Shown piece by piece: positions 17,606-62,900 of a stretch of 64,000 nucleotides of DNA; positions within the stretch are counted from its first letter, which is position 1, and every line of letters starts with the position of its first letter. Below the pieces are notes generated by a model. That model was not told where the DNA came from, did no database searches, and saw only the letters and a list, made by a program, of their open reading frames with translations. Both the position numbers and the translations under genes were made by a program. Source of the stretch: Schaalia canis (lineage in GTDB: Bacteria > Actinomycetota > Actinomycetes > Actinomycetales > Actinomycetaceae); NCBI RefSeq assembly GCF_003858455.1, contig NZ_RQZF01000004.1, forward strand, positions 1 through 64,000, read 5' to 3'.

Positions 17606-17645
17606 GATGACACCTCGTTGTGTTTCACTTTTGTTGTGGAATAGA

Positions 17646-20039: not shown

Positions 20040-20315
20040 TCAGTGGCTGTTGTTGGATGTTTGCTCCTGCTCCTGAGCATTCTTGTTGGCACGCTGCTGT
20101 GCATTGCGCAGAGCCTGTGCAACGTTGCGCAGCTGAGTGCTCAGGGTAGTGTTCCAGTCATTGCGGAACTGATCAGCATCCGGGCCCTTCCACTCCGTGG
20201 TGCCAAGCTGGTTGGTGATCGTGGAGATCACTTCATCAATCGTCTGAGCCTTCTGTTCCAGCTGCCTAGCCAGTTGACGTACCTGCTCGATGTTCATCCC
20301 GTAGAACCCGGCCAT
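20040..20315 (-). CDS. WXG100 (ESAT-6-like) secreted protein
   Basis: 91 residues from ATG 20313-20315, which has GGAG six bases upstream. A longer frame to 20363 lacks such support and would give an atypical N-terminal tail. Two helices joined by the canonical W-x-G turn (TEWKGPDADQFRNDW), ending in a polar Gln/Asn/Ser-rich tail (NAQEQEQTSNNSH). Typical WXG100 length. The Y-x3-D/E export signal seen at the C-terminus of some partners is not present, so it may homodimerise or pair with another WXG protein. It is the gene directly downstream of the EccC-type ATPase but has its own promoter region with the shared operator and its own terminator, consistent with high, separate expression. Confidence 0.92.
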   Translation of the reverse strand: MAGFYGMNIEQVRQLARQLEQKAQTIDEVISTITNQLGTTEWKGPDADQFRNDWNTTLSTQLRNVAQALRNAQQRANKNAQEQEQTSNNSH

Positions 20316-20400
20316 GACCTTCTCCATTCTCTGTGTCTGTTCCCTTGGATCACGGTGATCCAAGTGTGTTTTCAGGACTCCATCGCCCTATGCCTCTAGC

Positions 20401-20457
20401 GTGCCAAAGCGATGAAATATCAACAATGGGGAGGACTACCCATGGAGAACTCCCCAT
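20401..20457 (-). promoter_or_regulatory. WXG100 promoter region with shared operator, copy 2
   Basis: ATGGGGAGGACTACCCAT (20426-20443) is a near-palindrome of the same 18-base length as copies at 8532 and 42821. A second overlapping copy-like element lies at 20442-20457 (ATGGAGAACTCCCCAT). Reading toward WXG100, CCCCATTG is followed after exactly 15 bases by TTTGGCAC (20401-20408), the same words and spacing as before the giant surface-protein gene. The element sits between the stop of the ATPase gene (20469) and WXG100. Confidence 0.6.
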
Positions 20458-20468
20458 CGAAAGCTCGT

Positions 20469-23400
20469 CTACATCAGCGGAACTTGAACCTTCCACACCT
20501 TGCCGGCTTGCGTGAAATAGCCTCGACCGGGTGTGAGTTCACGGCTGCCAATAGCGGGCACAGTCACTCCTAGGGCACTGTCACCGTCTCCCGCGCCAGG
20601 GCAGAGAATCAGGCCCGAACGCGACTGTTTGAGGGTGGCAGTCAGCTGGCTTCCTCGATTCCATCCAGCAAGATCAGCCTCAACGATCACAAGGTGCCCG
20701 TTGCTCTTGGCAAGAGACAGCAACCCAACCACCTCAGGTTCCAGCGTGTAGTCGAAGCTAAACCCGCCCAGGTCTTCAATAACCAACACCACCCCGGGGC
20801 TATTCTCAGGAGCCTCAGCCTCGAAGAGCGCCCGATGTTCTTGTAGCATCTCCGCCAAGCCAGAGGCCCCCTGCGCGGTCGCATGCCATACACTGCTGCG
20901 GCTCAACGCAGAACGTCCAGACGAGGCATGCAGGAAACGGGTCTGTGCATTACAGGTGCGCAGCGAGTGCACCATCCACGCCAATGCGTTGCTGCGGCCT
21001 GTTTGTGCACCGCCGGCCACCGACACTGTTCCCACAGGCCGGAAGGGCAGGGGGGAGAGGGATTCACCCTCCACACCGATAACGGGCATCCCCTGTACGG
21101 ATGCGGAGACTTGCGCAGCAGGAATCTCCATCGGTAGCGATCCGATAGCCTGTGGGCGCACTCGACCTTGAGAGGTCATAAACTCACCGAGCTGGGCCAT
21201 CAGTCGAGCCTGAGCAAGAGCATTGATATTGTCGCCAAGGATCGCCAATTGCATGAGATCCGGCCGCCCCACCTGCATAGCGCGTCCGGGCAGGCTAGTG
21301 GGATTCAGAACATCCTTAGGCAAGCCGAAGTTCATGTAGGCGTCTTCATCGGTCTGCCGCAGAACGACCTTGCGTTGGAAGTTCGAGGCTACCGAGGTTG
21401 GAATCGCTGCAAATCGATCCGCCGTTACGGCAACATGCACACCAACAGCTCGTCCATCCAGCAAAATCTGCTGGAACTTGTTCCATGTGGGAATATGACG
21501 GGTCACCGACTGATATTCCTCCACGAACACGCCCACCGAATCGACGAGCAGTAGGATGCGGGGCTCATCGGGTAGGCTGGCAATCCGTCGATAGTTCGTC
21601 AGGTCTGCGGCATGAACAGCCGAGTATCGAGCTGCACGCTCTTCAACGATGGACGACAGGTGGGTTAACAGGCGTGCAACACGTTCCTCGTCATCTCCGG
21701 GTACAACGTCACCCACGTGAGGCATAGCCTTGAGCATGTCTAGGCCGCCACCAGCAAAGTCCAGGCCGTAGACATCGACAGGGCCACCCTTGGGTGTGAT
21801 TGCCGCAGCAATAGCCAAGGAGCGCAGGGCCGTGGTTTTTCCTGACCCGGAGGCTCCATAGTAGGCGATATTGCCTTCCCTATCGGGGAGGAAGTATTCC
21901 GGCACCTGCGCTTGATGTTCGGGCACATCAATAACACCCAGCACCAGTTCCGTGTCGGTGCGTTGGCGAAGGTTACGGATGTTATAGGTCTGCGCAAGTT
22001 CCTCCAGCCACGGTTTACGAGGAGTGGGGATCGCAGCCTTTTCTGCGGCTGCGCGCACAGTGGTGACGACACGATCGATGTCGGTCTCCACCTCGCCACC
22101 AACCTTCGGCAGTTCCGGAAGACGCCACTTTCGAGTCTTCCCAAAGCCAAGATCTTCAACATTGACGGCCACGGCCTTAATCTCTTCCGAAGTACGCGCC
22201 CCCGGATAGGCCGACTGGAAAGTGGTGATACGCCCCGGCCCCGTCTTAGCGGCACCACGCCCGGGAGCATTCTGCGGGAAGTGGGCGGCCATCCTGTCGC
22301 CAAGCACATCTTGGGAATCGTCCGTATCAGCCATACGCAATGCCACACGCAAGTTGGTGTTCGCACGCAAATTGTCCTTAATGACGCCAGCCGGGCGCTG
22401 CGTGGCAAGGATCAGATGAAGACCAAGGGAGCGGCCTCGTTGAGCAACGTCCACCACGCCATCAACGAACTCGGGCACTTCGCTGACCAGCGCTGCGAAT
22501 TCGTCTACGACGATCACCAGAGATGGCGGGCATTCTGGATCGCCACTCTTTTCAAGAGTGACCAGGTCTTTTGCGCTCTTGCGGTTCAAGAGTTTCTCAC
22601 GGTAGTGCAATTCGGCGCGCAGTGAATCGAGTGCGCGCCGCACAAGGAATGGCGACAGGTCAGTCACGAGGCCCACGCAATGAGGAAGCTCGGTGCATCG
22701 CGCGAAGGCTGCACCGCCCTTGTAGTCAACGAAGAGGAAGGTTAGACGATCGGGGGAGACAGCCTGTGCCATGCCCAGCACCCAGGCCTGCAAGAACTCT
22801 GACTTACCTGCACCGGTCGTTCCGCCGACGAGGGCGTGCGGGCCCTGAGAGCGCAGGTCGAGAGCAACAGGGCCAGCTGAGCCCTGGCCAACGAGGGCGG
22901 CGAGGCTGACGGCTGGGCCTGGAACTATCTCGGCGCCTGGAGTGCGGTTAATGAGGGAGTGTGTTGCCTTCCAGCGTTCGATCTGAGTGTCAGGGTTGTC
23001 GGCCAAATCTTTGCCGGTGAGTTGGACATAGGAGATGGAACCGGGGAGGTCAGAGTCATCGTCAACCGGAACGCCCGCATCCACCACTGGTGAGAGCGCT
23101 CGACCAAGTCTGGCCACATCTTCTAAGCGAACACGGTCAAGCTCAAGGGGAGTGATGATGCGGGACCCTCGAACATCACCCACGAGGCTCTTCTTCTCTT
23201 CAGCGACGACGAAGCTGCGGCATGCTGCTGGCAGAGCAGCGAAGTCTGGGCTGGTCCACACCATGTGAATGCCATAGTCGGGGCCGAGCTCGGCGAGACG
23301 GTTGAGTCGTGCTTGATCGACCACCACATCGTCAACGAGGACTACAACTGCGGGGATGGGGGCTGCTGGAGCCCCCTGTTCTTTGTCGTGGTTTCCGGGG

Positions 23401-24920
23401 ATCACCGGACCGCGCGAGAACTTCTGCCCTTGTGATGATTCTGCACTCTTGCGTGCTTCAAGCACTCCTTCAAGTGCTGAGAGCAGTTCCTGACCGGAGG
23501 CAGCGTCATCAGCGAGATGAAGGGAGGATCCCAAAGGTGAATGTGGTGACGTCACATGTGGGAGCCATTCAAGCCACTGTAGGGATGCGCGACGCTGAGC
23601 TGAGGTGAAGCAGGCGAGGGTGACCTCGGCGGGAGAATACTGACAGACAAGCTGAGCTGCGACTGCGGCTTGGGCCTGATCGAGCCAGGTACGATCCCCG
23701 CACATCCCCATTGAACCTTCCCGACGAAGGTCAACGACAATCGGCACTTGGTGAATTTCGATGAATTCTTCTTGCAGTGCTCGTGCTGCTTCGAGGCACT
23801 CGGGAATACCCTGGCCTGTTGAGGCCGTCTCAAATTCAATAGCTGCCTGATCCGTTCCGATACCCACTCGCAGTTTGAGGAACTCAGGATGTTCAGGGCG
23901 GCGCATCCACAGCGAGCCGTCACGAGATAGCGCACCATTGATGACCTGTTCCACGGGAGGATGTTGGGCCATTCGTGCAGAACGCTCGTCCTTGTGGTGT
24001 TTTTCCAGATCCTCGCGCAGTAGCGCGAGTGCAGCAGCGTGAGAGGCCTTGCCCTTCTTAATAGCTTTACGTGTCTGGCTCCACTGATCGAACCAGTTAC
24101 CAATCATCAGTAGCGGGCTCAGCGCCATGAAGACAACGGAGAGCATCTGACGGGTCATCAAGTACATGACACCGCCCATAATGAGGGGGGCGATGATAGC
24201 CAGAATCGGGAAACGCCCTTTATCTGGGACATTCGGATTCTCAGGAAGCTTGAACTTCTTGACGCCTACGTGCGGGATCACCTGAGGGGGACGAATAAAA
24301 CCAATGTCGGTTGAGTCGCCAAGTCCTTCTTCTGGTTGACGTAAGTGGACGAACTTCACCTGAGTGTCACCAATGGTAATGACATCATGGGGCCCAACGA
24401 CGCTACGCTGTACACGCTGATCACCCAAAAGCACACCATTAGCTGAGTTGAGGTCGTGTACTTCTATCTGGGATCCCACCACTACACGCATGTGCTTCTT
24501 AGAAATCATGGGATCTGTGCATGTCACGGTCGCCGATTGGGCGCGTCCAACTGTTGTTGAGCCGAAGGGGAGGGAGACAACCATCCCCTTGTCGGGGCCG
24601 GAGACAATGTGCATCTCAGCGGCTTTTGCCGCACCGGTGCCGATATTCTGCTCGGCTCCGGCAATGTCCACCACCGCGCCAGAGCGCAGGCCCGATTCTG
24701 TCACGTAGGCGGTGGGAGCGAGAACAGAAAGCACTCGTCCGCTTGCTGGCTCCAGTAGTCGCAAGGTCACAGATTCCGGATCGATCGCGGGCGCTGCCCC
24801 TTCGGGTCCCGCAGTAGCCAGAGTGGCGGCAATATCACCGATAGTGGCGGTATTGTCAGTGGTTACCAGCAGGTCAATGTCGGAAGGGCCTCGCCCTCTC
24901 AGGGTCAGTTTGATCCTCAT
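20469..24920 (-). CDS. EccC/EssC-type T7SS ATPase with fused ubiquitin-like and FHA domains
   Basis: 1483 residues. T7SS motor ATPase that recognises and drives export of WXG100 substrates. Residues 1-95 have a ubiquitin-like pattern ending YVTESGLRSGAVVDIAG (YukD/EccD-like; inference). Residues ~100-190 form an FHA domain (STTVGRAQSA, ISKKHMRV, DLNSANGV). Two transmembrane helices follow around 230-270. Three FtsK/SpoIIIE ATPase modules: Walker A GGTTGAGKS near 700 with Walker B VIVVDEFAAL near 805; Walker A GASGSGKTT near 1027 with LLLVDSVGV; a degenerate third P-loop GGAQTGRSNA near 1310 with VLVIEDLGGF. FHA at the N-terminus is an EssC feature and is not found in mycobacterial EccC. It lies in the kinase/FHA gene series, 48 bases after the FHA-HTH gene. 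No EccB, EccD, EccE or mycosin gene is in the window. Confidence 0.93.
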   Translation of the reverse strand: MRIKLTLRGRGPSDIDLLVTTDNTATIGDIAATLATAGPEGAAPAIDPESVTLRLLEPASGRVLSVLAPTAYVTESGLRSGAVVDIAGAEQNIGTGAAKAAEMHIVSGPDKGMVVSLPFGSTTVGRAQSATVTCTDPMISKKHMRVVVGSQIEVHDLNSANGVLLGDQRVQRSVVGPHDVITIGDTQVKFVHLRQPEEGLGDSTDIGFIRPPQVIPHVGVKKFKLPENPNVPDKGRFPILAIIAPLIMGGVMYLMTRQMLSVVFMALSPLLMIGNWFDQWSQTRKAIKKGKASHAAALALLREDLEKHHKDERSARMAQHPPVEQVINGALSRDGSLWMRRPEHPEFLKLRVGIGTDQAAIEFETASTGQGIPECLEAARALQEEFIEIHQVPIVVDLRREGSMGMCGDRTWLDQAQAAVAAQLVCQYSPAEVTLACFTSAQRRASLQWLEWLPHVTSPHSPLGSSLHLADDAASGQELLSALEGVLEARKSAESSQGQKFSRGPVIPGNHDKEQGAPAAPIPAVVVLVDDVVVDQARLNRLAELGPDYGIHMVWTSPDFAALPAACRSFVVAEEKKSLVGDVRGSRIITPLELDRVRLEDVARLGRALSPVVDAGVPVDDDSDLPGSISYVQLTGKDLADNPDTQIERWKATHSLINRTPGAEIVPGPAVSLAALVGQGSAGPVALDLRSQGPHALVGGTTGAGKSEFLQAWVLGMAQAVSPDRLTFLFVDYKGGAAFARCTELPHCVGLVTDLSPFLVRRALDSLRAELHYREKLLNRKSAKDLVTLEKSGDPECPPSLVIVVDEFAALVSEVPEFVDGVVDVAQRGRSLGLHLILATQRPAGVIKDNLRANTNLRVALRMADTDDSQDVLGDRMAAHFPQNAPGRGAAKTGPGRITTFQSAYPGARTSEEIKAVAVNVEDLGFGKTRKWRLPELPKVGGEVETDIDRVVTTVRAAAEKAAIPTPRKPWLEELAQTYNIRNLRQRTDTELVLGVIDVPEHQAQVPEYFLPDREGNIAYYGASGSGKTTALRSLAIAAAITPKGGPVDVYGLDFAGGGLDMLKAMPHVGDVVPGDDEERVARLLTHLSSIVEERAARYSAVHAADLTNYRRIASLPDEPRILLLVDSVGVFVEEYQSVTRHIPTWNKFQQILLDGRAVGVHVAVTADRFAAIPTSVASNFQRKVVLRQTDEDAYMNFGLPKDVLNPTSLPGRAMQVGRPDLMQLAILGDNINALAQARLMAQLGEFMTSQGRVRPQAIGSLPMEIPAAQVSASVQGMPVIGVEGESLSPLPFRPVGTVSVAGGAQTGRSNALAWMVHSLRTCNAQTRFLHASSGRSALSRSSVWHATAQGASGLAEMLQEHRALFEAEAPENSPGVVLVIEDLGGFSFDYTLEPEVVGLLSLAKSNGHLVIVEADLAGWNRGSQLTATLKQSRSGLILCPGAGDGDSALGVTVPAIGSRELTPGRGYFTQAGKVWKVQVPLM

Positions 24921-24968
24921 CGATCGGTTTCCTTACTGTGTAGATGGTCTGAAGTGGTAATCGCGTCT

Positions 24969-25733
24969 TTACTGGCCGCTTGCGTTGTTGCGCTTATACT
25001 CCTCGTCAAGCAGATAAAGGTCGTCCCGGGTGACAAGTCGCGCAGCCACTGCATATTCCACGAGGCGCACACGGCGATGGGTTGCGTGGGAGGAAGGGCC
25101 TCCTCGTAGGCCGGACACTCCGAGCCGGTCGAGCTTGTCAGCAACATTGTCGAGCTTGCGGTTGAAACGCGTCATCGACCATCCCAAACGCTTTGCTGCG
25201 GCAGAACTGCGAGGAATGTCGACCGGTCCCGAGCCTGCGCGCAGGAGCCACGGCTCTGCCAGAGAGAGGATGAGGAGGAATTGCGAGGGAGTGAAAGTGA
25301 CCTCCCCAACAGTGGTTTCGCCATTTCCGACCTCGGGTATTCCTGCACGTTTGTAGGACACACCGTTGACTTCAATGTCGAACTCGTAGGTGGTTGGGCC
25401 TGCGGAGAACACGACGGTTACCGCATCAAAGGCGATGGGGAGGCGGGCATCTGGGCCCACCCAGGCCTGCATCATGCCTGAAGCATCAGCAACGGTTGCT
25501 GAGGTTCTCGAGCCGATATTTTCTATCCACCACATGCCATTGTCATAGCTAATGGCAAGGAAGCGGCGGTGCAGGAATGGATTATCGTCCACGGAGAGGT
25601 CTGCTTCACGGCCAACAACAAACGTTGTCTCTGGATCGATCCGATATTCTTCCCCACAGTAGGAAACAACAGCGCAGGGAGTCTCTGAGGCCCCACAGGC
25701 ACGGCGAGCGGGTGAGTGTTGTTCAGCGCTCAT
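24969..25733 (-). CDS. FHA-HTH regulator-like protein
   Basis: 254 residues. Start at ATG 25731-25733, which overlaps the kinase stop as ATGA; a start five codons earlier would overlap more. Residues ~20-120 form an FHA-like domain (TTFVVGREADLSVDDNPFLHRRFLAIS ... IENIGSRTSATV). The C-terminal part contains a helix-turn-helix-like stretch (AAAKRLGWSMTRFNRKLDNV) and a basic end (HATHRRVRLVEYAVAARLV). An FHA domain binds phosphothreonine, so this could be a DNA-binding protein controlled by the kinase encoded just upstream, perhaps acting on the shared palindromes. That link is inference. It is translationally coupled to the kinase. Confidence 0.75.
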   Translation of the reverse strand: MSAEQHSPARRACGASETPCAVVSYCGEEYRIDPETTFVVGREADLSVDDNPFLHRRFLAISYDNGMWWIENIGSRTSATVADASGMMQAWVGPDARLPIAFDAVTVVFSAGPTTYEFDIEVNGVSYKRAGIPEVGNGETTVGEVTFTPSQFLLILSLAEPWLLRAGSGPVDIPRSSAAAKRLGWSMTRFNRKLDNVADKLDRLGVSGLRGGPSSHATHRRVRLVEYAVAARLVTRDDLYLLDEEYKRNNASGQ

Positions 25734-27565
25734 GGTGTGTCCACACATCCCGTTGTCGGATCAGAGGTCTTTCCGTTGCTGTGTCGAACGATGACTTCCA
25801 AGCACGTACGTCCATCAAGCTTGTTGACAGACACCGTGGTGTCTTGCGTCTGGCGTACCTGATGGTTCTCCAGGGGATCGATCAGGCGGTACAAATACTC
25901 AGCCCCCTCACCCTGGCTGTCCCAGGAAAACTCAACGCTGCCATCGTCTTTAAGGGTTCCCACTAGGCCGGTCACGGGTTCAGCATTATTCGAGGTCGGC
26001 AGTGCGTCGGGGCGTTCAGTTGTTGATGTATCTCCCGCAGGATTTTCAGTGCCGCCCTCGTCACGTAGGACGCTCCATACGCCAAAGACGATGGCACCCA
26101 CAAGGATCAAAGTTGCGAGCACGGCGATGATCACTTTGAGGGGAGAACGCGCGGGAACCTCGCTTGGCGTCTCCTCAACGATCTCTTTCTCTGAGCTCTG
26201 GTGAGCAGAGAGTTCCTCCATTGGCGCCGACGCAGTTGAGGCTGCGTACGCTGGCACACTCGCTGCGGGAATGCTCGGTTGCTGCAGGCCAACCGGTCGA
26301 GCAACAGTGGCATCGGAAACCTCAGCATATGCCTGCATGCCTCCGTCCCACGAGGCCGGAGCCGCCGCTGGAGTGATGGGAGGAGCCGAAGGCGTAGATG
26401 CACCACTTGTCGTGGTGTCACCGGCGAATCGCTGCGCGGCGGGTGCCCATGCTGAGGGTTCACTCGGCGGTAATGCGGCCCGGCCCACGCGGGTGGCCTC
26501 GTCGACTTCAACGGCAAACTCACCGTTGCCCCCAACGGGGTCAATACGACGAATAACCGAACGTGTCCCGTCATCGGAGGGAATGTCACGAACATTCCGG
26601 GTCGGACCAGGGCCCGTGATGGGACCATCGGGATCGATGCTCATGAAAGCACGAGCCCGTGTGGCGTCATCGCCCTCGTCAGACAGATCGTCCACCACTC
26701 GGTCTTCGAGGACGTCAATGGGGGTGGTGCGCTGGTGCATGTCGACTTGCACCTGCTGGAGGGCAAGGGCAAAGTCCATCATTGACGGGTAGCGCTGCCC
26801 TGGATCCTTCGCCATGGCGATGGTCAGGATACGTTCGAGCTCTGGTGGCACATCGGTGCGCCCGGTTTTGGGCACTGGGGAGCGCAGCACTCGGTTGAGC
26901 ATGGAGATTTCGCGGTTGTCTCCGCCGGGAATCTCGAAGGGGGAGTGTCCCGTGAGGAGCGTGTGGATAGTCGCCGCGAGGGAGTAGACATCCATCCCTG
27001 GTCCGAAGGGTCCTTGGCCGGTGGCTTGCTCGGGTGGTGCCCACGGCACAGAGAATCCGGAATCGCCCTGATTAGCGCCAGGTTGTGTGGAGACGGCGAT
27101 ACCGAAGTCCGTCAGCACGGGGTGACCAAATTGGGTGATGAGGATATTGGCGGGCTTGATGTCGCGGTGCAGAATGCCTGAACGGTGGAGGGTTTCCACT
27201 GCGCCAGCGATCCTAATGCCAATGTCAAGGACGCGAGGCACTGGCAATTGTTGCTTCTTCGCTCGCACCCCAAGATGAGGAGGCGGGCAGTACTCCATAA
27301 TGAGGTAGGAGCGGTTATCGTCACTCACCCCAGCACCGAAGACAGAGAGAATCGAAGGGTGGGCGGACATTTTCGCCATGAGGTTCGCCTCGGCTTCAAA
27401 AGCGCCGTTTTCTTCGGCGGAAGCGTCTGGGCGAATCACTTTCACGGCAATGTCGCGCTCAGGCATACGTTGCCGGTAGAGGAAAACATCGGCGAATCCG
27501 CCACTTCCGAGGTGCTTATGGTATTCGGAATTAGGGATTCTCGGGGGGACGATCCGATCTGACAT
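25730..27565 (-). CDS. Transmembrane Ser/Thr protein kinase with extracellular FN3-like domain
   Basis: 611 residues. PknB-type kinase domain: glycine loop LGSGGFADVF, Lys42 in DIAVKVI, catalytic HRDIKPAN (Asp135), DFG 153-155, APPE 176-179. Residues ~300-470 are a Pro/Ala/Ser-rich linker, then one transmembrane helix (VIIAVLATLILVGAIVFGVW). The outside part (~95 residues: GSVEFSWDSQGEGAEYLYRLID ... CLEVIVRHSNGKTSDPTTGC) reads as a fibronectin-III domain in place of PASTA repeats. It overlaps the FHA/zinc-ribbon gene (TGATG) and the FHA-HTH gene (ATGA). It corresponds to Pkb2 of the bifidobacterial PFNA cluster by architecture. Likely targets are the four FHA proteins and their partners around it. 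Confidence 0.92.
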   Translation of the reverse strand: MSDRIVPPRIPNSEYHKHLGSGGFADVFLYRQRMPERDIAVKVIRPDASAEENGAFEAEANLMAKMSAHPSILSVFGAGVSDDNRSYLIMEYCPPPHLGVRAKKQQLPVPRVLDIGIRIAGAVETLHRSGILHRDIKPANILITQFGHPVLTDFGIAVSTQPGANQGDSGFSVPWAPPEQATGQGPFGPGMDVYSLAATIHTLLTGHSPFEIPGGDNREISMLNRVLRSPVPKTGRTDVPPELERILTIAMAKDPGQRYPSMMDFALALQQVQVDMHQRTTPIDVLEDRVVDDLSDEGDDATRARAFMSIDPDGPITGPGPTRNVRDIPSDDGTRSVIRRIDPVGGNGEFAVEVDEATRVGRAALPPSEPSAWAPAAQRFAGDTTTSGASTPSAPPITPAAAPASWDGGMQAYAEVSDATVARPVGLQQPSIPAASVPAYAASTASAPMEELSAHQSSEKEIVEETPSEVPARSPLKVIIAVLATLILVGAIVFGVWSVLRDEGGTENPAGDTSTTERPDALPTSNNAEPVTGLVGTLKDDGSVEFSWDSQGEGAEYLYRLIDPLENHQVRQTQDTTVSVNKLDGRTCLEVIVRHSNGKTSDPTTGCVDTP

Positions 27566-34363: not shown

Positions 34364-35673
34364 CCCAGTGCCTTCCAGATTGCGACGCTGACATCGTCGA
34401 GGCCGGGAGCGGTGACCACGGGGAATCCTCCGATGGTGCGCAGGTCGAGCGTTTGAGAGGCGTCGAGGCGGATAGCGGCGACGATCATATTGAGTGGCAG
34501 GTGTGCCAGTGCGACGTGCATATCGTTGGGGGCTGTTCGGGAGCCGGTGATGACGACGGCCACGGAGGCTTGGGGGACGTCATTGCCAGCTTTGTGGGTA
34601 AGTTCAGGCAGGCGCTCAGCGGCGATGACACGCTCAATGCCGGAGAGGGAGTCGAGGGCGTGCATAACACTGGGGGTTTTGAGTTGGCCAGCCTGGGTGA
34701 CGATGGAGACCTCTTTTGATTCGGTCATCGTGGCGCGGGCCAGGGAAGCCGCCGCCGAGACACCGTCTTCGAATTCCTCGTCGCTGCCCCAGGCATCCTG
34801 GTCAAGATCGAGGATGATGAGCAGGTGGGAGCGTCGGGTTTCCTCGAATTGGCGGACCATGAGCTTGCCGGTACGGGCAGTGGTTTTCCAGTGGATATTG
34901 CGCCTGTCGTCGCCGGGAATGTAGTCGCGTAGGGCGTGGAAGGAGACGTCTGCGGAGGACAGGTCCTGCGTGGTGACGCCCTCAACGTCGCGGATAAAGC
35001 CGATGGCGGTGGCCGAGACATTCACGGTGCGCGGGTGAATGTAGAGTTCCGTCGCCTCTGACCAGGTTTGTGTCCGGCGTACAAGGCCCAGGGCATCACC
35101 GCGCACGGAGCTGGCTGGGCCGACGGGGATAATGCCGCGACGGGTAGTAGCAATACCAAAGGGTTCGGCGTGGCTGTCTCCTGCAGCGAGCCTGGTGGTG
35201 GTGAAGGAGGCGGCGCCGGCACCAACTTGCAGCTCGATGCGAGCGGCTGGGAGGGCGCGACTGGTGGGGTTGGTGACGGTGAGTTCACCGAGGGCACGCT
35301 CGCCCACACTGACCCGCGTTCGTTCGAGGTTCAGGTCAATGGCGTAGCCGGAGCGTCCGATCGACCAGATGAGGGCGATGAGGACGGTGACGACGAAGGT
35401 GGTGCCGATGCCAGCGATCTCCATCCACGCATGCTGCCAGCCTGCGAGCATCGCCACTACGCCCGTTGCCAGAATGCCCCACCCCAGGGGGGTGATGCCT
35501 TCGGTGAGGGACAGAAGGGAGCCGAGGACGGGTATTGCGCGCGCGGCATTGCGGAGCCTGTGGGCGTAGGCTGATGCGGCACTCCAGCGCTCGCTGAGCG
35601 CAAGGCGTAGCCGCATCAGCGGGCCAAGGTTACTCCGCCTATAGCGGGTAGAGGCGATGGATCGGCGTGCCAC
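34360..35673 (-). CDS. DUF58 domain protein
   Basis: 437 residues. Two transmembrane helices near 55-110 (GWGILATGVVAMLAGWQHAWMEIAGIGTTFVVTVLIALIW), a beta-sandwich region (LGELTVTNPTSRALPAARIELQVG), then the DUF58 signature DVSFHALRDYIPGDDRRNIHWKTTARTGKLMVRQFEE and a vWA-like end (LLIILDLDQDAW). DUF58 proteins are partners of MoxR ATPases in many bacteria. The gene lies 2 bases after moxR and overlaps the transglutaminase-like gene, so the trio MoxR-DUF58-transglutaminase is complete. Exact role unknown; assembly or maturation of surface complexes is the usual proposal. Confidence 0.92.
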   Translation of the reverse strand: MARRSIASTRYRRSNLGPLMRLRLALSERWSAASAYAHRLRNAARAIPVLGSLLSLTEGITPLGWGILATGVVAMLAGWQHAWMEIAGIGTTFVVTVLIALIWSIGRSGYAIDLNLERTRVSVGERALGELTVTNPTSRALPAARIELQVGAGAASFTTTRLAAGDSHAEPFGIATTRRGIIPVGPASSVRGDALGLVRRTQTWSEATELYIHPRTVNVSATAIGFIRDVEGVTTQDLSSADVSFHALRDYIPGDDRRNIHWKTTARTGKLMVRQFEETRRSHLLIILDLDQDAWGSDEEFEDGVSAAASLARATMTESKEVSIVTQAGQLKTPSVMHALDSLSGIERVIAAERLPELTHKAGNDVPQASVAVVITGSRTAPNDMHVALAHLPLNMIVAAIRLDASQTLDLRTIGGFPVVTAPGLDDVSVAIWKALG

Positions 35674-35675
35674 TG

Positions 35676-36641
35676 TCAGGCCTTCGTGGTGGGGATTTGC
35701 ACGGACTTCAGGGCTGCATCAATGACGCCGTCGCGGGTGGCGCCGCCAAATTCTGCGTCGGGGTCGAGAACCAGGCGGTGTGCCCAGACGCGGTGGGCGA
35801 GGCTTTGAATGTCGTCGGGGATGACGTGGTTGCGGCCCTGGGCCATGGCCCACACGCGGGCTGCGCGCATCATGGCGATGGCACCGCGAGTGGAGACACC
35901 AATGCGGACAGTGGCATCGTCACGGGTGGCGCGGCACAGTCCGTGGACGTAGAGGGCGACGGAACGGTCAACGTAGTTCTCAGCCGCCAAGTCAGCCATG
36001 TCGGCCACAGCCTTGGTCGAGATGACAGGGGTGAGCTGGGTGGAGCGGTCCGGGGCGGAGGAGCCCAGGATGATTTCCACGCTGGCGTCTTCGTCGGGGT
36101 AGCCCAGTTCGGTCTTCATGAGGAAGCGGTCGAGCTGTGCTTCGGGCAGCTTGTAGGTGCCAGCCTGCTCCACCGGGTTCTGGGTAGCGATCACCATGAA
36201 GGGGCGACCGGTTTCGTGGCGGACGCCGTCAACAGTGACGCGGGATTCTTCCATGACTTCCAGCAACGCCGACTGGGTCTTGGGCGAGGCGCGGTTGATT
36301 TCATCAGCGAGCACGATGGAGGCAAAGATCGGACCCTTGTGGAAGTCCCATGTGCCGGTGCGCTGGTCGTAGATGGTGACGCCCGTAATGTCGGAGGGCA
36401 ACAGGTCAGGGGTGAACTGGATGCGCGAGTGCGTGCCCTGCACGGTGGCGGCGATAGCGCGGGCGAGGGCGGTCTTGCCGGTGCCCGGGGCATCTTCGAG
36501 GAGCAGGTGGCCTTCTGCCAGCATGGTGGTCAATGCCAGGCGGATGACATCTTCCTTACCGAGCAGTGCTTTTCCGACATTTTCCACAATGCGTTCGAAG
36601 GTATCTGAGAACCATTGTGCATTTTCCTGTGTGACGGTCAT
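35676..36641 (-). CDS. MoxR-family AAA+ ATPase
   Basis: 321 residues from ATG 36639-36641 (AAAGGA upstream). A six-codon extension to a TTG is less likely. Walker A EDAPGTGKTALARAI near 45, Walker B IVLADEINRASPKTQSALLEVM near 112, sensor segment ATQNPVEQAGTYKLPEAQLDRF, arginine-finger region and a C-terminal lid (ALAHRVWAHRLVLDPDAEF-like). A chaperone-type ATPase that works with DUF58/vWA proteins. It follows the giant surface-protein gene by 45 bases and is likely co-transcribed with it. It corresponds to the 'aaa-atp' gene of PFNA clusters. Confidence 0.93.
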   Translation of the reverse strand: MTVTQENAQWFSDTFERIVENVGKALLGKEDVIRLALTTMLAEGHLLLEDAPGTGKTALARAIAATVQGTHSRIQFTPDLLPSDITGVTIYDQRTGTWDFHKGPIFASIVLADEINRASPKTQSALLEVMEESRVTVDGVRHETGRPFMVIATQNPVEQAGTYKLPEAQLDRFLMKTELGYPDEDASVEIILGSSAPDRSTQLTPVISTKAVADMADLAAENYVDRSVALYVHGLCRATRDDATVRIGVSTRGAIAMMRAARVWAMAQGRNHVIPDDIQSLAHRVWAHRLVLDPDAEFGGATRDGVIDAALKSVQIPTTKA

Positions 36642-36686
36642 TTGAGGTTTTCCTTTCAAGCTTTCGAGCGGTGGCTCCAGGTCCTT

Positions 36687-39600
36687 CTATCGACGATTAC
36701 CCTCACAATGAACATTGACTAAGTATCTATCTGCGGCCGCGAAGATTCCGGCTCCGAAGAAGGGCGGTATTGAGTGATAGAAACCATTGGAGTCAACGGT
36801 GATGATTTCGTCATCATCGCCCAGGTTTTTGCTCCATGCACCGGTGGTCCAGCACTTCACCTGACTGTGGGGGGGCCAATCCTCGAGTCTGATTCTCACC
36901 CACTGACAACCGGCACCACAGTTGGGCACATAGCCGCTGATATTGTGGGTACCACCGAAACGGTCAACGCTGTAGTAGCGGCCATAGCTACGTGCATTCG
37001 CTTCTGCGCAGACAGTCTCAGAGGTTCGACGTCCTAATTCATCTGAGGTCTGAACAGCTTGGACGCAGAGTTGCCCACGATTACCTTCGCCGACGTTAAA
37101 TGGCCGGTGACCTTCAGCGCTGTGTGCAATGGTTTCCGAAGCGCTTCCCGAAAGGACGAGTTGCGTTCCTCGGCCACCATTTGTTGATCCCTTCCACGTG
37201 CAATCGACCCATCCAACTCCACCTGCCCAGCATGAGACTTGCGGGTTTGACGGCGGCCCAAAGGGTGACACTGATGCACTCGCGACTTCAGTGGAGTACA
37301 CAGCACTACCAGTCTTTTCACCGACTGCACGAATCCGCACGGTGGTGGCCTGTCCATTGCTGAGACCATTGCCTGAGAGCACGCTGCCGTCCAGCGGCGC
37401 CCAGCCTCCACCTGCGCTCCATTCGTAGCGCAGTTGTCCGGGACTCCAGCCTTGACCGGCAGGGCTGCCTGAGTACTCAATACGCACCTGGTTGTTCTCA
37501 CCGGTTGCCCGCACAGAAGCGATGCTCGGCGGCAGGGGCTGGCCCACCACCCAGGTGCTCACGTTTGCTGCCTCAGAGGTTCTGGCAACAGCGTTTGCCC
37601 CGTCATTCGTGGCGGTCACCGTGAATTGCACCTGTTCGGCGTTAAAGCCCACTCCTTCAAGGGAGGTAGATGTTGCCGGAGCCTGCACGGTCTTTGTCAC
37701 CCCACCGGCGCTCACCGTGTAATACTCGATCTCACGGCCGTTAATATTCGCTGGGCGTGTCCAGCTGACATCCACGCTGGCCACCTGACCAGTGCCACTC
37801 CCCAGGCCGCCGTAGCTTGCGGCCAGGCTACCAACAGGCCCAGGCGCACCGTAGGGCACCATAGCGGGGCTGGCCTGCGACGCAGGCGATGATCCCTTGC
37901 CATTACGCGCCGTCACCGTGGCAACATACTCAGCGCCATTGGTCAGGCCCGTGAAGGTGACACTCTGGTTTGAGGCAGAAACCGTCTGCGTACCCGCTGG
38001 TGAGAGCGTGACCTCGTAATCAATCAAGGCCGATCCCTCATTGTGGGGCGGCTGCCAACTGACGGTCAGCTCCCGGTCTCCTGCCTTCAGTGTCGGCGCA
38101 GCCGGTGCCTCAGGCTCAATATCAATCATGGTCGTGGCCTGATTCGACGCCTCCGACACACCAACCTCGTTCGTCGCCGTCACCGAGAAGGTATGCTCCA
38201 CGCCGTTCTTACGGTTCGGGATAAGGCAGGTGGTGACCAGCCCACACTCTTGGGTATCACCCTGGGTATGGTCGGTGACGGTAAAGCCGGTGATAGGCGT
38301 GCCATTGGCTGGGCCTGCCGTCCAAGACACCTGAGCGGTTCCCGAAGAGTTCGACACCACTGAGGCATTGGTAGGAGCCCCAGGCTTATCGCGTACGGTG
38401 GCTGTCACAATCCCGCGGACTTCGCGTGAGGGATCCTTCGTGACGTCCACAACGGTGTAGCTCACCGTGAAGGTGCCATTAAAACCAGTATTGGCACTGA
38501 TACTCAGCTGCGTGCCATTAGCGGTCACTGCGCCACCCTCGCCAGCGCTGGGCGCGCCAACCAGGGTAATAGCGCCCTGATCCTGGAAGGGGTTCGTTGC
38601 GTACTGGGTGACATCCACCGTCGTTGACTTGCCCGCATCCAAGGTCACCTGAGCCTCGGAGGTCTGAATGAGCGGACGCGAGGAGGAAACGATCGTCACC
38701 GGCACATCAGCCTCGGTAGTCCCTCCGCGCCTATCATCGACGCTGATCCGAAGCGAACCAGCGCTACCGCGCTGGGCATCTGCGGGGGCCGATACCGACA
38801 GTTTCGTGCCCGACACCGATGCACTCAGACCGGCAGGCGCATTCCCCACGATCGTGTAGCTCATCGACGCTGGATCGTCCTTATCGGGATCGGTCACCAT
38901 TAGCGCCAGGTCAGCCACCGCTGCTTCCTCGCCAGGAGCTACTTCAACTGCCGTAGGCGTAAAGGTCGGCGGGCGGTTATCAGCCGGTTCAACCTCAATC
39001 GGTAAGGTGACCACCGCGGTGCGTCCCTCTGAGTCATTAAGGTCCTTGCCGTCGGTGACTTCCAGGGTGATCGACGTCAGGCCAGAGAAATCCTCCTTAG
39101 CTGTAAACACCAAGGTCTTGGCGTCCTTGACTAGGGGATCGCCATTCGTGCCCAAACCGGCACTCACCTTGTCATTGGAGGTAATGAGCACCGAGCGTCC
39201 ATCCCTGGCAATGATGTGATCATTGATCGGGATTTCCTTCTTTTGGCCAGCCTTGACTTTGATCGGCACGCTCGTCGTATCGACGGTCGGACGAGTAATG
39301 TCCGTTCCGGGAACGCGAATCACGGCCGATGCCTTCTTGCCCGTTGGATCAGTCACGGTATAGATCAAGATCTGGGCTTCGGGGGTCAGACTCACTGACA
39401 CGGTACCGTCAGTATTGACGCGCACATTGGCGTCACTGGAGCTAATCGTGGCATCTGCAATGTCACCGTCAGGGTCTTCATCATTGACCAGGACGGGGAC
39501 CGTGACTGCATTGTTCTCTGCGGTCTGAAGGTCTTCGCTGGTCACCGAATCGTCACGTGCGATTGGTGCGAGCTCGGGAGCCTCGTTCTTGACGATCACT

Positions 39601-42600
39601 GTCAAAATGCCCTGGGCTGAACCGCCTTTACGGTCACTCACAGCGTAGGAGATCACATGACTACCCTCGGCCTCTGGCGCCACAACAACTACGCGTCCTG
39701 AACGCTCGGACAGGTCCAGTCCGGCAGTCTGGGACGACAGGGAGTCCTTTTCCAACACCACATCATCGCCGTCAGGGTCAATGTCATTGCTCAGCACGGC
39801 AACGGCAACCTTGGTCTTGGGGCGCACCTGAACCTGGTCAGGCAAAGCCACAGGATTTTGATTGGTGCCCGCGCGGGGAGCCACACCGACACGCACTGTC
39901 GCGCTCGCCTGCTTACCTAGGCGATCTTCAACCAGATAGGTGAAACTGTCAGTGCCCTTGGCATCTTCAGCGGCGGTGTAACGCAGAAGCGTTCCCTCCT
40001 GGGTGACGGTGCCCAACTTTGGCGCACTTGCCAAACCAACCAGGCTCACTGAGTCGCCCTCGGGGTCAATATTGTCCAGGGGCACGAGAATATCCACCTC
40101 ACGCCCCGCGATCGTGCGGGCCGTCAGATCCTTCGGACGGGGGGCTGTGTTGGTATCAGCATCCATTGCGACCACCACCAGGTTAACCACAGCGGAGGCG
40201 ACATTTCCCATGGCGTCATGAACGGTATAGACGATTTTCCCTGAGCCGCCGCGCTCACCACCGCGCACGCGGATGACATTGTCGGAGATAAACACCGTAC
40301 CCAGATCAGGCTTGATTTCATGCTGCAGATCATTCGACACGGTCAGCTTCAAACCCGCAGGCGAGCGGTCGTTGGCAAGAACGGCCACCGAGGCCACGTC
40401 ACCCGCTCGGACAATGATCTGATCATCATTGAGCTCAGGTGGCTCATTGCCGGTCTGTGCAGGCTTTGGCAGCACGGTGACCGTCGCTGTTGCAGAGGCA
40501 ACACCGTTGGACACCGTGTAGCTGAAGGTCTCGGGACCATTCAGACCACGCGGCGCCGTCACACGCACCATCTGGTTATTAATGAGTGCCACCACCAGCG
40601 GCGATGTTGCAGGTACATCAAGCTTCTGAACGGTGAGTACGCCACCGGTGGGATCAGAGTCATTCGCCAGAAGATCAACCAAAACCTGGCCACCTTCAGG
40701 CAGGACACCCAAGTCAGGTTCAGCGCTGGGCGGTGCTTCCGTTGCAGCATCAATGACATCAATACGGATAACACCCGGGCCTGTTGCTGGGCCGTCAGTA
40801 ATGACGTAGCCCAAGTAGTAGGTGCCCACGGCATTACCCTGAATGCTGATCGTGCCAGCGGCGCCATCCATTGTGGCCGTCACACCAGCAGGGGAGTTCT
40901 CAATCTGAACCAAACGTAGTGGATCACCATTGGGGTCAGTGTCATTGGTCAGTGGAGAAAACGACGTTGAGGAACCCTGCCGGACAATCACATGGTCAGC
41001 GTTCGCAACAGGGGCTTCATTACCCGATTCCTTAACGTTGACAACAATCTGCCCCTCACCTGTATCACGTCCATCAGAGACGAACAGGGTGACCTGATCC
41101 TTTCCTGGCCCGTGTCCAATCTCGGCCACATCCACGCTGCCATTAACGTGCGTGCGCACGCTAATGCCTGCAGGTGCTGTTGCACTTTCAAGGTAGAAGG
41201 GATCGCCATCGGGATCCACCCAATTCGCCAGCGCGTTAATTGTTGCCTTGCGTCCCGTCCCCAGTGAGATGGTGGGGACAATGGTTTGAGTTGGAGGAGA
41301 GTTCACGTCGTCGCCGTGCACGCTTAGGGTGACGCGGGCTTTTGCTGTACCGCCACGCCCATCGGATACCTCGTACTCGAAAGAAGCCGCTCCGGAGGCA
41401 TCAGGGGCAACGTGGATTTGCAGTACAGAACCGTCCCGAGCACTCACCACTTCACCGATTGAAGGCTGACTCACGGCTATTGCGGTGAGGAAGTCTCCAT
41501 CAATATCAGAATCGTTCTGAAGGACAGGAAGGATCGCGGTGCGCCCTGCTCGTACACCGAACTCATCGTCAACAGCTACGGGGGGAGTGTTCTGCTCCGA
41601 ACGTTCCGGTAGAAGTGTCTGCTCGGTTTCATCGGGAGACTCTTCTTCGGTGTCGTCCTCAGATTCGATAGTGGATTCAATCTGATCCCAGTTATCGACC
41701 AGCAGCATATTTTCATCTGGAAGCCACAGGCCACCAGACTTCACGTCGTTTAGGACAATCACGTCACGGTTGACGCGGAATACTGCCTGTTCGGCAGACT
41801 TCATCGTGTCAACGGTGAGAGCAACAGTGTCTTCTTCGACTGCACATTGACGTAAGAAAGCGCCGGTTCCAGCCCATGCACCATACATGCAACTCTGATG
41901 ACGGACGGGGCGTGAAGGATTGCCAGCTTGTTCCATGGCAGGGTAGGTGGTCACAGTTCCACCGCCCATTGGCACCTCAAGCAATGCAGCGTCGGAGGCG
42001 ACAAGAACACTTTCTGCCTGCGGGCCGGATTCCTGGAGGGTCAGATTCTTTCCTTCAAGAACCTGTGTCTTCCCATCAGCAAAAATAAGTGTCGATGTGT
42101 TCCGGTCAAGGACCACCGGAGTTGAACCAACTGCGGCGACCTGAAGTGTCGAATCACCATTGATTCCACTTCCACTGAGGTCGTGTTCAACGGTCTCTTT
42201 CACCTGCCCCTTGGGAATTACACTGACCAGTTTTGATCCTGCTGAGGAGGCAACATGTACCGATCCGTCTAGACCAACTGCAGTGAGCGCTCCCGGCATC
42301 TCCGTCACATCCGGATCGGTTTCTTCAGGAAGAAAAGACGCGGGTGCAGCGGCATCTTGAATCCATACCTTGCCTGATACACCATCGGTGATAGCCACTG
42401 TTGGACCACCAGCAGTTGTCGCCATGCCGGCATACTCAACCGGTGTAGTAAGCGCAGCGTTGGAGACGTCGATACCAGTCAGCGTTGAGGCCTCGCCGTC
42501 AGAGAGCAGAACCTGTTCACCGTTTTGGAAGACGTTGAAAACAGCTGACGCGGCACGTAATCCCGTGTCGAGGAGACGCGCGGGGTAGTTAAGGTGTGCA

Positions 42601-42761
42601 ACCAGACGCAAGTTGGCGTTCGTCACCCATACGCCACCGTCGTTCAGATCAACCTCTGTGGTGTGAACACCGGGGTTCAAGAGTGCAACAACTAACGAGG
42701 TCACAGCTCCAACAGTGGCTGATACACCCGCCACCTTACGTACACGTGAACTCCGCGCCAT
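36687..42761 (-). CDS. Giant surface protein with tandem cadherin/Ig-like and FN3 repeats
   Basis: 2024 residues from ATG 42759-42761 (GAGAGG 8 bases upstream; a TTG 20 codons earlier lies inside the operator and is rejected). N-terminal anchor helix (VAGVSATVGAVTSLVVALL), residues ~35-390 with propeller-like segments (VWVTNANLRLVAHLNYP), then about eleven ~95-residue repeats with the pattern N-x-PPVA-DD ... VL-NDSDPDGD, typical of cadherin-like/Ig bacterial repeats. Three to four fibronectin-III domains follow (PGAPTNASV, APAAPTLKAGDRELTVSWQPP, APGPVGSLAA), and a C-terminal ~190 residues with several Cys (CWAGGVGWVDCTW, VPNCGAGCQWV). No sortase signal, so membrane-anchored by its N-terminus. 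It corresponds to 'fn3' of PFNA clusters, proposed to act in host contact. Confidence 0.9.
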   Translation of the reverse strand: MARSSRVRKVAGVSATVGAVTSLVVALLNPGVHTTEVDLNDGGVWVTNANLRLVAHLNYPARLLDTGLRAASAVFNVFQNGEQVLLSDGEASTLTGIDVSNAALTTPVEYAGMATTAGGPTVAITDGVSGKVWIQDAAAPASFLPEETDPDVTEMPGALTAVGLDGSVHVASSAGSKLVSVIPKGQVKETVEHDLSGSGINGDSTLQVAAVGSTPVVLDRNTSTLIFADGKTQVLEGKNLTLQESGPQAESVLVASDAALLEVPMGGGTVTTYPAMEQAGNPSRPVRHQSCMYGAWAGTGAFLRQCAVEEDTVALTVDTMKSAEQAVFRVNRDVIVLNDVKSGGLWLPDENMLLVDNWDQIESTIESEDDTEEESPDETEQTLLPERSEQNTPPVAVDDEFGVRAGRTAILPVLQNDSDIDGDFLTAIAVSQPSIGEVVSARDGSVLQIHVAPDASGAASFEYEVSDGRGGTAKARVTLSVHGDDVNSPPTQTIVPTISLGTGRKATINALANWVDPDGDPFYLESATAPAGISVRTHVNGSVDVAEIGHGPGKDQVTLFVSDGRDTGEGQIVVNVKESGNEAPVANADHVIVRQGSSTSFSPLTNDTDPNGDPLRLVQIENSPAGVTATMDGAAGTISIQGNAVGTYYLGYVITDGPATGPGVIRIDVIDAATEAPPSAEPDLGVLPEGGQVLVDLLANDSDPTGGVLTVQKLDVPATSPLVVALINNQMVRVTAPRGLNGPETFSYTVSNGVASATATVTVLPKPAQTGNEPPELNDDQIIVRAGDVASVAVLANDRSPAGLKLTVSNDLQHEIKPDLGTVFISDNVIRVRGGERGGSGKIVYTVHDAMGNVASAVVNLVVVAMDADTNTAPRPKDLTARTIAGREVDILVPLDNIDPEGDSVSLVGLASAPKLGTVTQEGTLLRYTAAEDAKGTDSFTYLVEDRLGKQASATVRVGVAPRAGTNQNPVALPDQVQVRPKTKVAVAVLSNDIDPDGDDVVLEKDSLSSQTAGLDLSERSGRVVVVAPEAEGSHVISYAVSDRKGGSAQGILTVIVKNEAPELAPIARDDSVTSEDLQTAENNAVTVPVLVNDEDPDGDIADATISSSDANVRVNTDGTVSVSLTPEAQILIYTVTDPTGKKASAVIRVPGTDITRPTVDTTSVPIKVKAGQKKEIPINDHIIARDGRSVLITSNDKVSAGLGTNGDPLVKDAKTLVFTAKEDFSGLTSITLEVTDGKDLNDSEGRTAVVTLPIEVEPADNRPPTFTPTAVEVAPGEEAAVADLALMVTDPDKDDPASMSYTIVGNAPAGLSASVSGTKLSVSAPADAQRGSAGSLRISVDDRRGGTTEADVPVTIVSSSRPLIQTSEAQVTLDAGKSTTVDVTQYATNPFQDQGAITLVGAPSAGEGGAVTANGTQLSISANTGFNGTFTVSYTVVDVTKDPSREVRGIVTATVRDKPGAPTNASVVSNSSGTAQVSWTAGPANGTPITGFTVTDHTQGDTQECGLVTTCLIPNRKNGVEHTFSVTATNEVGVSEASNQATTMIDIEPEAPAAPTLKAGDRELTVSWQPPHNEGSALIDYEVTLSPAGTQTVSASNQSVTFTGLTNGAEYVATVTARNGKGSSPASQASPAMVPYGAPGPVGSLAASYGGLGSGTGQVASVDVSWTRPANINGREIEYYTVSAGGVTKTVQAPATSTSLEGVGFNAEQVQFTVTATNDGANAVARTSEAANVSTWVVGQPLPPSIASVRATGENNQVRIEYSGSPAGQGWSPGQLRYEWSAGGGWAPLDGSVLSGNGLSNGQATTVRIRAVGEKTGSAVYSTEVASASVSPFGPPSNPQVSCWAGGVGWVDCTWKGSTNGGRGTQLVLSGSASETIAHSAEGHRPFNVGEGNRGQLCVQAVQTSDELGRRTSETVCAEANARSYGRYYSVDRFGGTHNISGYVPNCGAGCQWVRIRLEDWPPHSQVKCWTTGAWSKNLGDDDEIITVDSNGFYHSIPPFFGAGIFAAADRYLVNVHCEGNRR

Positions 42762-42795
42762 GAATGACACCTCTCCTTGGGCAACTGAGACCACG

Positions 42796-62807: not shown

Positions 62808-62900
62808 TGTGTCTCCAGATGGCAACGTTGACATCATGCGCGTTTGCGCACTACCCCACTCTACTTGTCAGACAACCTTATTATCTGATAATTTCGAGAT

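Follow-up and report, generated by a model that had tools for sequence, protein, structure and literature searches.

Why should the motor ATPase of a type VII secretion system (T7SS) and a WXG100 protein be encoded in one run with PFNA-type genes (kinase, FN3 protein, MoxR, DUF58 and transglutaminase), which are known from an operon of bifidobacteria? The arrangement lies in Schaalia canis (genome of 2.58 Mb), in what we call the window, the whole analysed stretch of 64,000 nucleotides of NZ_RQZF01000004.1 (contig C24 in our numbering). A previous sequence-only reading had proposed that a T7SS without the usual ESX membrane parts is controlled here by phosphothreonine (pThr) signalling, and that RDD-FHA and transglutaminase-like proteins may stand in for those parts. 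Having followed the cluster through the genomes of the order, we conclude, with a probability of about 0.6, that it encodes an actinobacterial T7SS variant whose motor ATPase and WXG100 protein share their assembly and their regulation with the PFNA module. The gene linkage, domain architectures and residue states reported below were established computationally.

A T7SS-type ATPase in a cluster of PFNA-type genes

Between positions 20040 and 42821 the minus strand carries 11 genes, nearly without gaps, from a giant Ig/FN3 protein to the WXG100 protein, and six of the gene junctions overlap. The gene list and the six overlaps of the sequence-only reading held on re-examination. The letters in brackets denote the families in the gene orders given later.

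20040..20315, minus: WXG100 protein, 91 residues, in the position of TsxA; start ATG at 20315, the open reading frame (ORF) extending to 20363
20469..24920, minus: T7SS motor ATPase, 1483 residues, with ubiquitin-like and FHA domains, two hydrophobic segments and three P-loop domains
24636..24920, minus: domain 1 of the ATPase, a putative YukD/EccD-like ubiquitin-like domain fused in cis, recognised by profile-profile comparison only
24969..25748, minus: FHA-like protein (H), 259 residues, with the motif GR..HR..N..G and no Pfam match
25730..27568, minus: Hanks-type Ser/Thr kinase (K) with a hydrophobic segment at residues 479-497 and an extracellular C-terminal part; catalytic motifs intact
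27565..29469, minus: protein with CxC..CxxC (zinc-ribbon-like, by eye) and a C-terminal canonical FHA domain (Z), no transmembrane (TM) segment predicted
29469..30479, minus: PP2C-type Ser/Thr phosphatase (P), metal-binding motifs intact
30469..31857, minus: RDD membrane domain, Pro-rich linker and canonical FHA domain (R)
31850..34363, minus: TgpA-type membrane protein, predicted pseudo-transglutaminase (T), with the catalytic Cys replaced by Asp522
34360..35673, minus: DUF58 protein (D) with two hydrophobic segments
35676..36659, minus: MoxR AAA+ ATPase (M), Walker motifs intact
36687..42821, minus: giant surface protein (F), 2044 residues, with an N-terminal hydrophobic segment and 11 Big_9 and 2 fn3 stretches in Pfam

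Pfam or NCBIfam matches support Big_9/fn3, MoxR, DUF58, TgpA_N with a transglutaminase core, RDD with FHA, PP2C, FHA, protein kinase, FtsK_SpoIIIE with FHA and a WXG100-like domain among these proteins. Promoter-like and terminator-like sites in the region are about as numerous as the means of shuffled sequences, and no claim about transcription units follows from them.

The cluster is conserved in relatives

We searched 248 genomes of the order for the ATPase and took matches of at least 770 bits, a threshold of our choosing, as orthologues. These were found in 72 genomes; the other 71 proteins are mostly full-length and 40-48% identical to that of the window, and the closest named ATPase, from Actinomyces mediterranea (Actinomycetaceae), reaches 65%. 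The flanks of the 71 loci, up to 20 kb, were then mapped with hidden Markov models (HMMs) of the eleven window families. Upstream of the ATPase, and on its strand, 44 of the 72 loci have all three of M, D and T, and within these linked loci we also recognised F (41), H (41), Z (39), K (38), P (36) and R (36). A further six loci are partial, with two or more cluster genes upstream. The linked loci are spread over nine families, a recurrence that rules out chance adjacency of the ATPase and the PFNA genes, and the supercluster described in the sequence-only reading proves, by the 44 loci, to be conserved. Counted away from the ATPase, the commonest order is H-K-Z-P-R-T-D-M-F, exact in 20 of the 44. 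Seven others are block-permuted, the F-M-D-T block lying beside the ATPase (as T-D-M-F) and followed by H, K and Z: the blocks have swapped places and stayed in the cluster.

A set of 80 named loci gave a similar picture. Among the 67 with at least 9 kb of upstream sequence, the transglutaminase (TG) gene was found in 57, and TG, FHA-like and kinase genes together in 50; ten have neither a TG nor an FHA-like gene upstream. Arthrobacter, Pseudarthrobacter, Microbacterium, Cellulosimicrobium, Brachybacterium, Nocardioides, Demequina and Propionibacteriaceae are represented in this set. Moreover, among the matches listed, a TG match at E<=1e-40 occurs in 61/72 clade genomes compared with 58/176 of the others (Fisher 4e-14 with kinship ignored, from a genome list compiled by hand from the match table).

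Some loci stand out for other reasons. One labelled Sporosarcina beigongshangi (L191) holds an actinobacterial cluster with Arthrobacter-like scores and is probably a contaminating contig. Mycobacterium sp. GA-2829 (L219), Mycolicibacter acidiphilus (L221) and Rhodococcus yunnanensis (L239) have a clade ATPase and WXG100-type genes; apart from a match to the R family, no PFNA genes were found in the flanks examined.

The ATPase seems to begin with a ubiquitin-like domain

The ATPase comprises the ubiquitin-like region (residues 1-95), an FHA domain (about 105-192), hydrophobic segments at 237-277 and three P-loop domains. Its best NCBIfam matches are EssC (top) and EccC, all NCBIfam T7SS scores lying below the curated cut-offs, and its PDB matches include EccC and YukB. 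For residues 1-95 there is no Pfam assignment. We therefore turned to profiles: one of domain 1 built from 139 clade N-termini (rows below 650 bits, or with an alignment starting after residue 10, excluded), and a YukD reference of 29 EccD/YukD ubiquitin-like domains (one of 30 loci, L142, left out). Domain 1 (residues 3-86) matched the reference with a score of 25.4 (Prob 49, E 1.7e-4). All 150 column-permuted YukD profiles (maximum 17.3) stayed below this score, and so did all 121 decoy slices, which are real segments of other cluster proteins (maximum 20.8). The other FHA-ATPases of the order, those of the T7SSd type included, matched YukD with Prob 94.6 and E 6.7e-8 over 53 columns (0/120 permutations; 19 of 23 used, rows without a recognisable start dropped), and the two sets match each other at E about 4e-13. 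Taken alone, the two T7SSd-type rows (L113 and L117) gave Prob 90 and E 1.7e-6 against YukD, Prob 43 against clade domain 1 and 0.2 against FHA. We rejected the reading of domain 1 as a degenerate first FHA domain, as in EssC, on account of its Prob of 0.8, below 1, against the clade's own FHA profile.

From these comparisons, the window ATPase and its T7SSd-type counterparts alike seem to start with a ubiquitin-like domain of the YukD/EccD kind. What we say of papers cited by PMC number refers to the portions of their text that were available. There, the ubiquitin-like protein of T7SSd is reported missing (Garrett, Higginson and Palmer, 2024; PMC11217815). Fusion of this protein to the ATPase, as domain 1, would be the simplest explanation of that absence. 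Actinobacterial YukD domains have been described as always fused to a 12-TM protein (PMC1779556).

The signalling proteins keep their functional residues

The kinase motifs HRD and DFG are invariant in 99 rows, and so are the metal-binding motifs DGMGGH (Met excepted) and DN of the PP2C phosphatase in 92 rows. Within the ATPase FHA domain, R126 and S140 are each kept in 68/72 clade rows, H143 in 70/72 and N161 in 66/72; the same positions are kept in 9, 8, 10 and 5, respectively, of the 23 other rows (R126, S140, H143, N161; one EccC included). Binding residues of the RDD-FHA protein are kept in at least 98 of 101 rows, and those of the zinc-ribbon FHA protein in at least 95 of 97. The protein at 24969-25748 had been called FHA-HTH; its FHA-like part stands, the GR..HR..N..G motif being present in 103/103 rows, and the C-terminal helix-turn-helix was not confirmed. 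Because the residues of kinase, PP2C and FHA domains are intact, pThr signalling through this set is plausible. For TsdC, the T7SSd ATPase, conserved pThr-binding residues have been reported (PMC11217815); by eye, the FHA domain of the T7SSd-type ATPases of L113 and L117 looks degenerate, at odds with that description.

The transglutaminase is a predicted pseudoenzyme

The GFC motif of PDB 6g49, a protein-glutamine gamma-glutamyltransferase that we take to be TgpA, aligns with GDD of the window TG, its Cys falling on Asp522. This Cys is the catalytic Cys of the family. Over 103 rows (those below 100 bits excluded, the copies from the ATPase-less PFNA loci L111 and L114-L116 included) the column holds D in 83, E in 15, Q in 4, S in 1 and Cys in none. 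The His is kept in 70/103 rows and the Asp in 80/103, and the window copy keeps both. Judged by these residues, the TG of the cluster is a pseudoenzyme, because the catalytic Cys is absent from all 103 rows.

The giant protein has a single, N-terminal hydrophobic segment, and by hydropathy a C-terminal TM segment is absent from 20/20 long homologues, the window copy included. Its Ig-like units, a dozen or so at least, could carry it across the cell wall.

The WXG100 protein and candidate substrates

The window WXG100 protein scores 27.8 bits against WXG100_2 (cut-off 27) and 22.1 against WXG100, below the cut-off of 27.3. The ATG is its probable start, preceded by a GGAGAAGG-like site (by eye). 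It is likely to be a structural substrate. Downstream lie two larger proteins with WXG100-like regions, the second with a CHAP domain, which are likely substrates as WXG-domain fusions.

18865..19950, minus: candidate substrate, 361 residues, WXG100-like N-terminus (WQG, by eye) and Gly/Ala-rich hydrophobic C-terminus; matched by the HMM of our A family, no Pfam match
16775..17770, minus: candidate substrate, 331 residues, WXG100-like region (E 0.076, below the cut-off) and CHAP domain (4.1e-14)

In the relatives, WXG100 neighbours were sought with an iterated HMM, a search that excluded candidates above 700 residues and still missed Pfam matches beside the ATPase in two genomes (G114 and G043). 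Of the 50 linked or partial loci, 34 have a WXG100 gene no more than 1.2 kb downstream of the ATPase, as do 13 of the 22 unlinked ones. Among the 70 named loci with enough flanking sequence, one was found within 3 kb in 43 and within 10 kb in 51; in 13, a short and a long (at least 290 residues) WXG-domain ORF both lie within 5 kb. In many loci of the Arthrobacter type no WXG100 was recognised close to the ATPase. Somewhere in the genome, WXG100 matches were found in 20/20 clade genomes searched, 19 of them above the cut-off.

High-scoring WXG100 matches away from the ATPase also occur in several of these genomes; in S. canis the one at C2:231474-231725, with 61.9 bits, scores above the window copy. 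Near the cluster, the regions 59364-62837 and 43310-45946 of the window encode glycan degradation functions: a sialidase-like protein with BNR repeats and F5/8 type C domains, and an alpha-L-fucosidase with Ig-like matches.

ESX and T7SSb parts were not found in the genome

The search for membrane parts of known systems covered EccB, EccD, YukD, YukC/EssB and mycosin (EccE, EsaA and EssA were not searched for). EccB gave no match in the S. canis genome and matches in 2/72 clade genomes, which served as the working control as none of 14 control genomes matched. For YukD we found none in S. canis and matches in 6/72 clade genomes, and for YukC/EssB none in S. canis, the Bacillus subtilis control being positive for both. 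EccD was likewise not detected, in a search where no control matched, and the only mycosin-like protein is a subtilase on contig C68 with 128.5 bits, below the cut-off of 278.75. Within the families searched, a full ESX core elsewhere in the genome is thus ruled out, and the absence of such a core that the sequence-only reading had assumed is upheld, EccE not having been searched for.

The genome does hold two more ATPases of this kind. One, of 1424 residues and with an FHA domain, lies on an 11.5-kb contig (C8; locus L110:625-11209) beside proteins of 672 (kinase-like), 432 (hydrophobic segment near the start) and 993 residues; this locus is a T7SSd-like second system. The third FHA- and FtsK-type ATPase (C35:134493-138005, L112:4494-8006) has 1170 residues and lies among seemingly unrelated genes. 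Actinotignum schaalii has been described as having a T7SS with EccB and, besides, a second ATPase of the FtsK type (PMC5720513).

The window ATPase belongs to a clade apart from T7SSd-type ATPases

A tree of 95 ATPases built with FastTree groups the 72 window orthologues in one clade, with SH (Shimodaira-Hasegawa) support of 99. The T7SSd-type proteins of L113 and L117 fall into another clade of 19 (SH 97) together with the C8 ATPase of S. canis itself, and two further loci (L118 and L167) branch beside the window clade without firm resolution. We use L113 and L117 as proxies for T7SSd. Their layout is T7SSd-like, with a 147-residue one-TM protein, a giant of about 1800 residues, the ATPase, a small FHA-like protein and a WXG-like protein; the one giant scanned, that of L117, has hydrophobic segments near both ends. 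Neither M, D, T nor F was found in the flanks examined. Our best reading is that the window holds a new phospho-regulated T7SS variant, for which the PFNA genes would supply the envelope parts, and not a member of T7SSd as represented by these proxies.

How the machine might work

We infer that the parts form one secretion machine, which would operate as follows. The ATPase would provide both the membrane pore and the motor, its ubiquitin-like domain serving in cis the function that EsaB/YukD, or the domain of EccD, supplies in trans. The kinase would phosphorylate Thr residues on partner proteins, on which the FHA domains would dock, so that the machine is assembled or licensed; PP2C would reset it. 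MoxR and DUF58 may work as paired chaperones in the maturation of the membrane pseudo-TG and of the giant Ig/FN3 protein, and the latter would form the path through the cell wall, or the anchorage, in place of EccB/D/E or EsaA/EssB.

A broader proposal is more tentative, and we would give it somewhat under even odds: the PFNA genes would supply the envelope side of yet another T7SS subtype. Such a machine would be assembled by pThr-FHA docking, its motor would have a ubiquitin-like domain in cis, a dead TG would serve as its scaffold in the membrane, and the giant Ig/FN3 protein would be its conduit through the wall. The PFNA operons that occur alone in bifidobacteria, where they have been studied as host-cytokine sensors, would be related to this apparatus or left over from it, and in the FHA-ATPase T7SSs of actinobacteria, T7SSd included, domain 1 of the ATPase would be the "missing" ubiquitin-like protein.

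Weighing the alternatives

Several observations weigh against a jointly built system. In 22 of the 72 ATPase loci M, D and T are lacking upstream, and each of these has at most one of F, M, D, T, K, H, P and Z there (13 retain a match to the RDD-FHA family, and one, G217, has a TG match 10 kb downstream); upstream sequence is shorter than 9 kb in six of the 28 unlinked or partial loci, two of the 22 unlinked ones among them. The ATPase genes of relatives do not, then, lie consistently away from PFNA genes, the outcome that would have told against the sequence-only reading, though these 22 do lie apart. PFNA clusters also exist with no ATPase in the flank examined, one on contig C13 of S. canis, two in a genome of the same genus and one in G246. 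The C13 cluster (L111) runs F-M-D-T-R-Z-K, with a TG 48% identical to the window copy, and no ATPase, PP2C, FHA-like gene or WXG100 was found within the 20 kb examined. PFNA is therefore not strictly dependent on a window-type ATPase. Near the ATPase, 16 of the 50 linked or partial loci have no recognised WXG100, nor do 19 of the 70 named ones within 10 kb downstream. As for domain 1, the Prob that the window clade reaches by itself (49) is modest. Searches of single sequences with a YukD HMM were weak, the best E values among 158 sequences being 0.009 for a clade row and 5e-5 for another row, and Pfam YukD matched 2 of 47 N-termini (best E 0.036). The ubiquitin-like matches of a PDB profile search were weak as well (E 0.34 and 0.65), and neither this search nor the Pfam scan alone was counted as evidence. 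The tree is limited by the FastTree method and by long branches.

The PFNA genes might be an independent envelope or adhesion module, and the T7SS might merely share its kinase/FHA regulation and its operon. The ATPase-less clusters (L111 and L114-L116; L114 appears to be of bifidobacterial origin) and the ATPases without M, D and T in cis would fit this, as would the treatment of FN3 and PKB2 as host-signal genes in the PFNA literature (PMC8430577). We find it rather doubtful, given that the blocks permute without separating, that junctions in the window overlap and that most clade genomes encode a related TG somewhere among the matches listed. It is unlikely, too, that the window simply holds the published T7SSd in another host, the PFNA genes being neighbours absent from the list of Garrett et al. 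Four of the five T7SSd component types do have counterparts here, T7SSd likewise lacks Ecc parts, and the pThr residues of TsdC are reported conserved, as in the window clade (PMC11217815); the FHA domains of L113 and L117, which look degenerate by eye, weaken these proxies. Nevertheless, the proxies fall into a separate clade, in the flanks examined they lack M, D, T and F, the window giant lacks a C-terminal TM segment, no TsdH was seen, and the genome has a second ATPase of the other clade on C8. Very improbable, finally, is an FtsK-like pump in cell-wall growth with the WXG100 protein as a bystander: the named loci without a WXG100 nearby would suit it, but the ATPase is closest to EssC and EccC, WXG100 or WXG-domain genes follow it in the window and within 3 kb in most named loci, and all clade genomes checked have WXG100 matches. 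The T7SS variant built and regulated together with the PFNA module thus remains our preferred explanation.

Comparison with known systems

By the features that define a T7SS in general, the window encodes an EccC/EssC-type FtsK ATPase with two TM segments and three P-loops, a WXG100 protein beside it (20040-20315) and a ubiquitin-like component, the last as an ATPase fusion recognised by profile-profile comparison only. With T7SSa (ESX) it shares the FtsK-type ATPase and the WXG100 protein, and EccD has the same kind of ubiquitin-like domain; the EccC of L166 has no ubiquitin-like N-terminus (by eye), and EccB, EccD and a MycP above the cut-off were not found in the S. canis genome. As in T7SSb, an ATPase with an N-terminal FHA domain has a single WXG100 gene beside it, and EssC is the best NCBIfam match. 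However, in T7SSb EsaB is a protein of its own and EssC bears two FHA domains (PMC11217815), whereas the window ATPase has one FHA domain and a putative fused ubiquitin-like domain, and neither EssB (YukC) nor a stand-alone EsaB/YukD was found in the S. canis genome.

Of the published systems, T7SSd comes closest. It comprises the FHA-ATPase TsdC, the WXG100 protein TsdA, the membrane kinase TsdD, the giant Ig protein TsdI (N-terminal signal, C-terminal TM) and the short one-TM protein TsdH, without EccB/D/E or EssA/B/EsaA (PMC11217815). The window system shares with it the actinobacterial FHA-ATPase, the WXG100 protein, a kinase and a giant Ig-like protein, the kinase and WXG100 corresponding in type to TsdD and TsdA. 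The proxy ATPases apparently have the N-terminal ubiquitin-like domain as well, which the available text of PMC11217815 does not report. The window cluster differs from T7SSd by its MoxR, DUF58, TG, RDD-FHA, PP2C, zinc-ribbon FHA and FHA-like genes, by a giant protein that, unlike TsdI, has no C-terminal TM segment, and by an ATPase that lies outside the TsdC clade as judged by L113 and L117, which stand in for the Olsenella uli sequences. There is no room for TsdH between the operon genes, nor was a short one-TM protein seen among the window proteins scanned, genes further out not having been scanned. In the main text of PMC11217815, as available, MoxR, DUF58, transglutaminase, Arthrobacter and Microbacterium are never mentioned; the window clade may be among its supplementary accessions.

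A MoxR-DUF58-TgpA triad is known as a three-gene block. The same block occurs here, and its TG fold retains His and Asp in the window copy; it differs in that the window-type TG has no catalytic Cys (0/103 rows). The available text on MoxR systems (PMC7159879) mentions neither DUF58 nor type VII or WXG.

The PFNA operon of Bifidobacterium holds a kinase, an FN3 giant, MoxR, DUF58 and TG, and in some species PP2C and FHA (PMC8430577, PMC6803598). All five core genes (pkb2, fn3, aaa-atp (MoxR), duf58 and tgm) are present in one putative operon in the window, the kinase eighth in order and not first as in Bifidobacterium. The bifidobacterial operon, as described there, has no secretion ATPase or WXG100, and in the available text of both papers FtsK and secretion go unmentioned. 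In literature searches that covered part of the matching papers, we found none that links PFNA genes with T7SS and none that describes an FHA-ATPase with a fused ubiquitin-like domain; PMC11217815 was the only T7SSd paper among the matches listed. The residues indicate that the "transglutaminase" of PFNA clusters cannot be a cysteine enzyme, and this alters the way in which the operon should be studied. Our interpretation would also offer an answer to the stated puzzle of a T7SSd without a ubiquitin-like protein, and one of its predictions is that Ser/Thr phosphorylation acts as the switch for secretion in many common actinobacteria. The comparison joins two literatures, on new T7SS variants and on the bifidobacterial PFNA operon, that are silent on each other's genes in the texts searched.

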